Assembly (NCBI GenBank): GCA_018820275.1
Contig: JAHJOO010000008.1
Span: 1 to 64,000, forward strand
Direction of reading: 5' to 3'
DNA from: Alphaproteobacteria bacterium
GTDB lineage: Bacteria > Pseudomonadota > Alphaproteobacteria > Caulobacterales > Caulobacteraceae
DNA: 64,000 bases
Shown: piece by piece, positions 42,797 through 45,812 of the stretch
How the letters are laid out: every line of letters starts with the position of its first letter
Position numbering within the stretch: the first letter of the stretch is position 1
The notes under the pieces: generated by a model
The model's input: only the letters and a program-made list of their open reading frames with translations
Database searches by the model: none
What the model was told of the DNA's origin: nothing
Made by a program: the position numbers and the translations under genes

Positions 42797-43018
42797 AGCG
42801 TTGACGGGTCCCCGCCGGAGAGTAGTTTTCAGACCTGACGCACTTCCATCCCTTCACGGATGAAGACGGCGCGAGACCTCCGTTTCGCGTCGGCGGGAGA
42901 TGTCTGTCCGGTCGGCCGCCAAGGCCCTGAAGCGCCAGTTTCAGGGGTCGGGGAAGGCTTGCCCCGGCCCAGGCTCTCCGGCGCGTCGCCAGCGGGGAAC
43001 GGAGACGAGAGGGTGGCA

Positions 43019-44458
43019 ATGATGGCGGCAGAAGCGGCGCGTGTGGCGATGACCGATCCGGACCGGATCTGGGCGGAGGCGGCCGGCCGGCTGCGCGCCG
43101 AGATCGGCGACGGCCCGTTCAGCAGCTATATCGCCCCCTCGGCCGTGCGCCTCGACGGCTCGGGCCAGCTGGTTCTGGTCACCCCCACCGGCTACGCCCG
43201 CGACTGGGTGCGCAAGAACGCCCTGCGCCGCCTCAACGAGCTGTGGCTGGGCCTCGACGGCCTGTCGCGCCGGCTGGACGTGCGCTGCCGCGCCGACATG
43301 CCCGCCGTGACGCCGTCGGTGATCGCCTCGGCCGACGCCGCCCCGTCCGCGCCCCGCCCCGCCGCCATGCCGGCCCCGACCGTGGGCCCCGTCGCCGACG
43401 GCGCCCGCGCCGTGCGCGCCGCGGGTCTGCAGGAGCGGCTGACCTTCGACGGGTTCGTGGAGGGCAGCGGCAACGCCTTCGCCCTGGCCATCGCGCGTCA
43501 GGTCGCCGGCTGGGCCGACGGCCACTTCAACCCGGTGGTCTTCTGCGGCCCCTACGGCCACGGCAAGACCCACCTGCTGAACGCCATCGCCTGGGAGGCG
43601 CAGCGCCTGCGCCCCGACGCCCGGGTCATCTACCTGACCGCCGAGCGCTTCCTGTCCAACTTCATGCGCGCGGTCCAGGACCGCACCACCGCGGGCTTCA
43701 AGGAGGCCCTGCGCAGCGCCGACATGCTGCTGATCGACGACGTCCAGTTCGTCGGCAACAAGGCGGCGACCCAGGAGGAACTGCTCTCCACCCTGACCTC
43801 GCTGATCGAGGACGGGCGGCGCGTCGTCCTGTCGGCCGACCGGGCGCCCATGGCCCTGACCGAGATCGAGCCCCGCCTGCGCAGCCATCTGTCGGCCGGC
43901 CTGACCTGCCCGATCGAGGCGGGCGACCGCGACCTGAAGCTGGCCGTGGCCCGCAACCGCTTCCACACCCTGGCCGGCCTCGGCGTGGTCTCGGGCGAGG
44001 CGCCCGACGCCGTGCTGGAGCAGCTGGTCGACCAGACCCCGGGCACGATGCGCGAGCTGGAGGGGGCGGTGAACACCGTCGCCGCCGCCGCCGGGGGCCG
44101 CCTGTCGACCCTGACGATCGACGAGGTGCGCGGCCTGCTGGGCGCCGCCTTCCGCGGCGGGCCGGAGCGCCGCATCACCGTCGACGAAATCCAGAAGACC
44201 GTCGCCGAGCATTTCCAGCTGAAGCAGGCCGACCTGCTCAGCGACCGCCGCAACCGCGCCATCGCCCGGCCGCGCCAGATCGCCATGTACCTGTGCAAGC
44301 AGCACACGACGCGGTCCTATCCCGACATCGGCCGCCGCTTCGGCGGGCGCGACCACACCACCGTCCTGCACGGCGTGCGCAAGGTCGGCGAGCTGATGAC
44401 CCAGGACGACCAGGTCGCCCGCGACGTCGAGGCGTTGACCCGCAAGTTGAGGGGCTGA
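43019..44458 (+). CDS. dnaA: chromosomal replication initiator DnaA
   Basis: GPYGHGKTHLLNAI Walker A, LLIDDVQF, LCKQHTTRSYPDIGRRFGGRDHTTVLH. Confidence 0.98.
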   Translation: MMAAEAARVAMTDPDRIWAEAAGRLRAEIGDGPFSSYIAPSAVRLDGSGQLVLVTPTGYARDWVRKNALRRLNELWLGLDGLSRRLDVRCRADMPAVTPSVIASADAAPSAPRPAAMPAPTVGPVADGARAVRAAGLQERLTFDGFVEGSGNAFALAIARQVAGWADGHFNPVVFCGPYGHGKTHLLNAIAWEAQRLRPDARVIYLTAERFLSNFMRAVQDRTTAGFKEALRSADMLLIDDVQFVGNKAATQEELLSTLTSLIEDGRRVVLSADRAPMALTEIEPRLRSHLSAGLTCPIEAGDRDLKLAVARNRFHTLAGLGVVSGEAPDAVLEQLVDQTPGTMRELEGAVNTVAAAAGGRLSTLTIDEVRGLLGAAFRGGPERRITVDEIQKTVAEHFQLKQADLLSDRRNRAIARPRQIAMYLCKQHTTRSYPDIGRRFGGRDHTTVLHGVRKVGELMTQDDQVARDVEALTRKLRG

Positions 44459-44479
44459 TGTCGCGGCCCACGGGCTCGG

Positions 44480-44609
44480 GGCTTAGGGCTTAGGGATTGA
44501 GGCTTAGGGCTCAGGGCTGGACTGCAATGAGGGTCCGGGGCCGTTGTCCACCGGGTTATCCACGGGCGGCGGCGATGCGTCCTAAGCCCTAAGTCCTGAG
44601 CCCTAAGCC
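44480..44609. repeat. inverted arrays of GGCTTAG heptamers flanking DnaA-box-like sites
   Basis: Left five units 44480-44514, right four inverted units 44582-44609; perfect 14-bp pairing 44501-44514 with 44596-44609. Confidence 0.9.
44544..44564 (+). promoter_or_regulatory. two DnaA-box-like 9-mers between dnaA and dnaN
   Basis: TTGTCCACC 44544-44552; TTATCCACG 44556-44564. Confidence 0.45.
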
Positions 44610-44693
44610 CCTTCCTTGCCCCCCATCCCCAATCCGCTAGTGTTCCCGGCCACAGTGTAAGGGGCGGCCTGAGTCGTCCCCGGGCGAGACGAC

Positions 44694-45812
44694 ATGCAGC
44701 TGACCATCGAACGATCCGCGCTCCTTCGGGCCCTGGGCCACGTGCAGAGCGTGGTCGAGCGCCGCAACACCATCCCGATCCTGTCCAACGTCCTGCTGTC
44801 GGCCGGCCGCGACCGGCTCAGCTTCGCTGCCACCGATCTGGACATGGAGATGGTCGACGAGGCCGAGGCCCAGGTGAACGTCGAGGGCCAGATCACCGCC
44901 CCGGCCCACACCCTGTACGAGATCGCCCGCAAACTGCCCGAAGGCGCCGAGGTCTCCCTGTCCTACGACGGCGACGATCCGCGTCTGGTGGTCCAGGCCG
45001 GCCGGTCCAAGTTCAACCTGCCGGTCCTGCCGGCCGGCGACTTCCCGGTCATGTCGACCGAGACCGGCGGGGCCCGCTTCTCCATGCCCAAGGAGGATCT
45101 GGCCCGGCTGATCGACAAGACCCGCTTTGCCGTCTCGACCGAGGAGACGCGCTACTATCTGAACGGCCTGTATCTCCACACCGTGGCCGAGGGCGGCGTG
45201 CCCCTGCTGCGCGCCGTGGCGACCGACGGCCACCGCCTGGCCCTGGCCGAGACCCCCGCGCCCGAGGGTGCCGCCGGCGGCCCCGGCGTCATCGTCCCGC
45301 GCAAGACCATCGACCAGGTCCGCCGCCTGCTGGACGACGGCTCCGGCCCGGTCGAGGTCATGGTCTCGGCCCAGAAGATCCGCTTCGAATTCGGCCAGGC
45401 CAGCCTGACCTCCAAGGTCATCGACGGCGCCTTCCCCGACTACATGCGCGTCATCCCCAAGGGCAACGACAAGCAGGCCGACATCGACAACGCCGTCTTC
45501 GCCTCGGCCGTCGACCGCGTGGCGACCATCTCGGCCGAGAAGAGCCGCAGCGTGAAGCTGGCCTTCGACCTCGACCGCGTCACCCTGACCGTGCGCAACA
45601 TGGAGGCCGGCCAGGGCGTCGAGGAGGTCGAGATCGGCTATTCCGAAGAGCCCTTCGAGATCGGCTTCAACGCCCGCTATCTGCTGGACGTCGCCGGCCA
45701 GATCACCGGCGAGACCGCCCACTTCAAATTCGCCGATCCGGCGTCGCCGACGCTGGTCCTCGATCCCGGCGACCCGGGCGTGCAGTATGTGCTGATGCCG
45801 CTGCGGGTGTGA
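44694..45812 (+). CDS. dnaN: DNA polymerase III beta subunit
   Basis: [36 protein letters not shown]-terminal YVLMPLRV. Confidence 0.98.

Follow-up and report, generated by a model that had tools for sequence, protein, structure and literature searches.

The element between dnaA and dnaN belongs to a family of long hairpins that is dispersed and typical of the genus, with arms built from mirrored 7-bp units of the form AG[G/T]NNNN. The unexpected part of this finding is the turnover of the units at orthologous sites, with the two arms still being matched to each other. Compensation within stems is usually read per base pair, whereas here whole 7-nt arrays have been swapped in both arms at one site between related species. 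Such an exchange of arrays represents a countable natural test of stem rewriting, in which selection for pairing can be set against template switching.

Within the window, i.e., the whole 64-kb stretch of DNA that was analyzed, the element follows the dnaA coding sequence (42860..44458, plus strand), which was taken from the ORF listing and is conserved in relatives at its C-terminus and stop. The left heptamer array (44473..44521, plus strand) begins 14 nt after this stop and reads GGCTCGG GGCTTAG GGCTTAG GGATTGA GGCTTAG GGCTCAG GGCTGGA, corresponding to AGGGCTT units in the AG register. A 60-nt spacer forms the loop (44522..44581) and is partly kept in close relatives (TTATCCACSGG..CGGCGG in the alignment with G017, G124, and G089). 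The right, inverted array (44582..44609, minus strand) consists of CTAAGCC CTAAGTC CTGAGCC CTAAGCC. The initial annotation had given the letters and coordinates of its listed units correctly, including a start at 44480, 21 nt past the end of the dnaA stop; the left array is longer than listed there, as it also comprises the degenerate units GGCTCGG (44473) and GGCTGGA (44515). Its description of a strict 7-nt period in mirrored arms agrees with our results: Tandem Repeats Finder reported period 7 in both arrays (5.7 copies at 44479-44518 and 4.3 copies at 44581-44610), and 44501-44514 is identical to the complement of 44596-44609, giving the perfect 14-bp pairing described. A search for GGCTTAGGGCTTAG with up to two mismatches returned six matches in the window, all of them inside 44473-44609, whereas dinucleotide shuffles of the window averaged 0.10 matches and never exceeded 2. 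DnaA-box-like sites had likewise been noted between the arms. A near-consensus box, TTATCCACG, is indeed located in the loop (44556..44564, plus strand), and nowhere else in the 64 kb does a sequence come within one mismatch of the DnaA-box consensus TTATCCACA. Beyond the right arm, comparison of relatives revealed a block conserved genus-wide, CTTGCCCCCCATCCCCAATCCGCTAGTGT (44615..44643, plus strand), which lies just 3' of the hairpin and is probably the dnaN promoter; dnaN itself was defined by the ORF listing and by relatives (44694..45812, plus strand).

Folding of the 235-nt dnaA-dnaN gap as RNA yielded z = -3.1, and z fell to -4.6 when only the stem region before the conserved block was folded, while the gap folded with single-stranded DNA parameters was unremarkable (z = -0.9). 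Consensus scans at the window copy retrieved no canonical terminator with a T-run after the stem and no sigma-70 promoter near the conserved block. The search of the element against Rfam 15 gave sub-threshold matches only, with nothing above the gathering score.

Extension of the analysis to the entire assembly (G000; 2.82 Mb, 75 contigs) showed that the element is far from being solitary. The unit dimer, allowing two mismatches, was found 94 times in comparison to 16 times for the reversed pattern, grouping into about 12 clusters over 10 contigs. Copy numbers from short-read assemblies have to be taken as lower bounds, since contigs break off inside (GGCTTAG)n arrays with 12 or more units at G000:C33:39258-39348 and G000:C60:34904-35029, so that the longest arrays probably break the assembly and are left unassembled. 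Read singly, nearly all clusters are inverted pairs with the G-rich strand leading, and their spacers and flanks are unrelated. A unit-free heptad pattern detected 50 places versus six in the reversed control; in this search, AGGGCTT was the unit used in 11 of 14 clusters. In same-genus relatives, heptamer elements are spread along whole chromosomes. Sampling 400 kb of the complete genome G046 regardless of unit revealed 12 period-7 arrays (one being a masked N run) and 0-5 arrays of other periods, with inverted array pairs occurring at period 7 only. The AGKG heptad pattern is present in 13 of the 15 sampled same-genus genomes (own genome included) and in just 8 of 95 genomes from 21 other genera of the family, nearly all of these eight having one match each, except G225 and G226. 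The literature that we searched held nothing on this unit or on such repeats in Brevundimonas or Caulobacter. The initial annotation had set copies clustered at the origin against dispersed ones; the copies are dispersed, which largely corresponds to the generic interspersed repeat that it had named as the opposite of an origin-linked element. Taken as a whole, its interpretation is partly supported.

We read the gap between dnaA and dnaN in 90 genomes of the genus and searched 60 of these for arms. Period-7 arms were found in 31 of the 60 species, 24 of them by strict definition (lag 7 best in both arms) and seven, with short arms, by eye. The units differ between species: AGGGCTT (G000, G017, G076, G103, G109), AGGGATT/AGGGATG (G049, G079, G089, G099, G105, G108), AGGGTCG/AGGGGCG (G052, G059, G081, G087, G111), AGGTTCC/AGGTTCT (G040, G042, G044, G066), AGTGATT (G074, G083, G112), AGTGGCG (G063, G107), and AGGCAGT (G086). 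Common to them is the arm consensus AG[G/T]NNNN; at lag 7, AG recurs in 49 and GG in 57 of the 62 arms. Despite this diversity, each left arm fits its own right arm, with a mean local arm-to-arm score of 31.0 within species versus 17.0 between species, a contrast against which the relatedness of the species works by lifting the between-species scores. In 100,000 permutations, the mean never rose to the observed 31.0 (best permuted mean 23.8), a result that is no formal probability because the set was partly picked for having arms and the species are related. The 31 stems folded as RNA at a mean z of -4.7, with z < -2 in 29 of them. In the close set of G000, G017, G124, and G089, a portion of the loop (TTATCCAC...CGGCGG) has been conserved together with the downstream flank, in contrast to the arm units, which differ, e.g., AGGGCTT in G000 and G017 versus AGGGATG/AGGGATT in G089, showing that the unit was replaced in place, at least there. 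Of the 31 species with heptad arms, 17 have TTATCCAC between the arms. Other species carry no arrays, a short hairpin, or another large palindromic repeat at this site.

Unit changes are not restricted to the dnaA-dnaN gap. At the C7 site, AGGGCTT is used in G000, G007, G094, and G087, AGGGNCG in G111, AGGCAGT in G079, and AGGCGGT/AGTCGGT in G017. Within the cluster of ribosomal protein genes, the element located between rpmD and rplO (C49 site; G000:C49:5303-5367) has AGGGCTT in G000 and AGTGGCG in G079; a plain GC-rich, terminator-like hairpin stands in place of the array in G089, G017, and G008. This plain hairpin in three relatives suggests that rplO has its own promoter in the genus. In G087, the unit is AGTGGCT at the C22:39.1k site and AGGGATT in one arm at the C54 site; the elements at C54 and C22:34.8k are absent from G089 and G017. 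Genome-wide, one unit dominates in G111 (AGGGNCG, heptads on 19 contigs), G004 (AGTGGCG), and G000 (AGGGCTT), and several units exist side by side in G025 and G087. It is conceivable, yet in our estimation quite improbable, that a trans-acting protein or templated enzyme sets such a heptamer "dialect" for each genome by reading or writing AG[G/T]NNNN hairpins after stops while evolving jointly with the unit, the whole set of copies thereby switching at once: the genomes with one dominant unit look like this, G087 and G025 do not. The order of units is weakly mirrored between the arms (48 elements; mean excess 0.35; Wilcoxon p = 0.007; small effect), and with this weak excess we no longer take strictly mirrored order to prove copying between the arms. 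Among single elements, mirrored order is clearest in a very long one in G079 (G079:C1:1387525-1387788), in which AGGGAGT and AGGGATT alternate in both arms, with about 20 units in one arm.

Gene context was assigned by a codon-usage gene finder trained on the genes of the window, and by the ORF listing for the window copy. In the own genome, four elements lie between convergent, five between co-directional, and one between divergent genes, with two further ones at contig ends; nine of ten have a stop codon no more than about 20 nt away. Among 31 elements in other genomes of the genus, 22 are co-directional, three convergent, four divergent, and two within a predicted ORF, and 25 lie 29 nt or less from a stop codon, often 5 nt or less. 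Combined, 34 of the 41 elements placed in gene context have a stop codon at most 29 nt away, five are found between divergent genes and two inside predicted ORFs, these elements not all being independent, because some are orthologous to each other. For comparison, 9 of the 28 gaps of at least 60 nt in the window are divergent.

Based on these positions and predicted folds, we consider it fairly probable that the stop-adjacent heptamer hairpins serve as 3'-end RNA hairpins, acting as terminator or stabilizer of the mRNA end, which grow by 7-nt slippage and stay paired through selection and/or template switching. The mRNA of the upstream gene would fold into the heptamer stem, by which its 3' end would be terminated or protected. 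At the dnaA copy, with the conserved block after the right arm resembling a dnaN promoter, the hairpin would form a boundary between dnaA and the dnaN promoter; with no T-run terminator and no sigma-70 promoter returned by the scans, the case for this boundary draws on its location and on the plain hairpin that takes the place of the array at C49. Units may arise and spread through 7-nt slippage within one arm, and the opposite arm would return to register via selection for pairing and/or template switching between the arms during replication. Template switching is reported to make and maintain stems (PMC8794818), and a further publication describes homogenized inverted-repeat arms (PMC8604942). 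We infer that slippage followed by template-switch re-matching of the arms represents an economical mutational route; in view of the weakly mirrored unit order, selection for pairing may nevertheless do more than copying. Against a 3'-end role stand the lack of a T-run at the window copy as well as the five divergent elements and the two inside predicted ORFs. With copies located after dnaA and between rpmD and rplO, changes of the unit could alter the 3'-end formation of essential genes.

A purely mutational, functionless origin would equally yield matched arms. Period-7 slippage and template switching would then make and homogenize inverted arrays wherever intergenic space permits, and stop adjacency would merely mark tolerated insertion sites. 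Unit turnover, variable unit numbers, locus-specific loops, and the copies missing from orthologous sites (C22:34.8k and C54) fit such a mutation-driven repeat, and an excess of heptamers has been linked to polymerase slippage in a hypothesis cited in PMC4692102. The very tight adjacency to stop codons inside the gaps, the persistence of the element at dnaA-dnaN across many species, and the substitution of the array by a plain hairpin at C49 argue against it, making a neutral by-product rather unlikely in our view. Spread of a mobile REP/MITE-like element by a transposase appears improbable. Many copies per genome and the dominance of a single unit in G000, G111, and G004 would be expected from it, and the dispersed family that the initial annotation had considered as one possibility does exist; its mobility is doubtful, because loops and flanks differ between copies and the genome yielded no Y1/RAYT transposase. 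The search for PF01797 (Y1_Tnp) gave zero matches in the own genome, with the control being positive in E. coli and Caulobacter. Furthermore, orthologous sites switch their unit in place and retain loop and flank. A mobile element with a common core was rejected after a k-mer search beside 151 arrays, which found no shared core and GCGATG next to only eight of them.

The three G per 7 nt of the window unit make the (TTAGGGC)n strand a candidate for a quadruplex acting at the DNA or RNA level, as proposed for the heptamers of Xanthomonas and Nostoc, which form quadruplexes in vitro (PMC4692102). We regard this as highly improbable for the family described here. The units AGTGATT, AGTGGCG, and AGGTTCC at dnaA-dnaN are devoid of GGG runs, yet their arms are still matched; consequently, it is the hairpin and not the G-quadruplex that persists, and the heptamers of this genus keep hairpin rather than quadruplex capacity. 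The loss of GGG runs in several species rules out a quadruplex as the conserved feature of the orthologous dnaA-dnaN site.

The initial annotation had also proposed a replication or segregation site linked to the origin, to which we assign a hardly noticeable chance. In its favor, a DnaA box is present in the loop and kept in many relatives. Dispersal of the copies over the genome, a flat GC skew along the 64-kb window, and several relatives without arrays at dnaA-dnaN speak against it. In the complete relative G046, dnaN is located at 2.1 kb and hemE at about 279 kb, i.e., 277 kb apart. There, the sampled skew changes from -0.058 at 180 kb and -0.004 at 258 kb, before hemE, to +0.046 at 281 kb and +0.089 at 320 kb, past hemE, and switches back between 1.8 and 2.1 Mb; as the samples at 3.3 Mb and 60 kb deviate, this argument is good but not perfect. 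The sign change thereby adjoins hemE, not dnaA. In ten complete relatives, hemE and dnaN are roughly 150-530 kb apart, and in Caulobacter hemE flanks the replication origin. Skew, hemE distances, and this Caulobacter neighborhood together make it very unlikely that the dnaA-dnaN gap is the origin, and the origin or segregation site was rejected on the basis of dispersal, skew, and hemE position. The gaps of G021, G035, and G078 have a TTATCCACA box without heptamer arrays, showing that DnaA box and arrays are independent features; under the proposed 3'-end role, the box in the loop would be a separate site enclosed by the arms by chance.

The closest known system, and one of the same kind, is that of the G-rich heptamer repeats of Xanthomonas. 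Rehm et al. 2015 (PMC4692102) described GGGAATC/GGGNATC heptamers in Xanthomonas and GGGGA(C/T)T in Nostoc; the Xanthomonas sites are close to a preceding stop codon and rare between divergent genes, and two sites in convergent orientation (inverted pairs) occur in 70 (Xcc) and 75 (Xac) cases. Shared with our family are G-rich 7-nt units in variable number, the intergenic, dispersed distribution with no origin bias, the proximity to a preceding stop, and the low number of divergent placements. In contrast to Xanthomonas, the unit in this other genus is not GGGNATC/GGGANTN but AGGGCTT and its variants, several of them without GGG, the element occurs mostly as inverted pairs, the unit changes between species and loci with the arms matched, and quadruplex capacity is not conserved. 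The TAACTGA heptamers of Beggiatoaceae are also 7-nt, intergenic, and dispersed; they are direct repeats (one indirect set versus 169 direct), mostly just upstream of start codons, with one conserved unit (MacGregor 2015, PMC4679880). REP/BIME and MITE palindromes resemble the present elements in being intergenic, dispersed, and often 3' of genes, and differ from them in that the elements here have arms of 7-nt tandem units, no common core, and no RAYT/Y1 transposase that we could find; as the copies share the 7-nt unit only, they do not class with REP/RAYT palindromes. With intrinsic terminators they have in common the GC-rich hairpin straight after the stop codon and its plain counterpart at rpmD-rplO in relatives, and are unlike them in the 60-nt loop, the tandem-repeat arms, and the missing strong T-run at the window copy.

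Several hairpin families unrelated to one another seem to be tolerated at the dnaA-dnaN site. In G012, G025, G041, G043, G046, G088, G097, and G104, the place of the heptamers is taken by another large palindromic repeat (CTCCCTCCCC...GGGGAGGGAG), and a further, distinct repeat (TCATCCTCCGGCTTGACCGG...) is found at this site in G029, G030, and G037. The gap of G117 has heptad arms with an unrelated palindromic repeat of about 200 nt nested in the loop. Away from this site, a GGGGTA hexamer array directly adjoins a GGCTTAG array at G000:C57:48620-48680.
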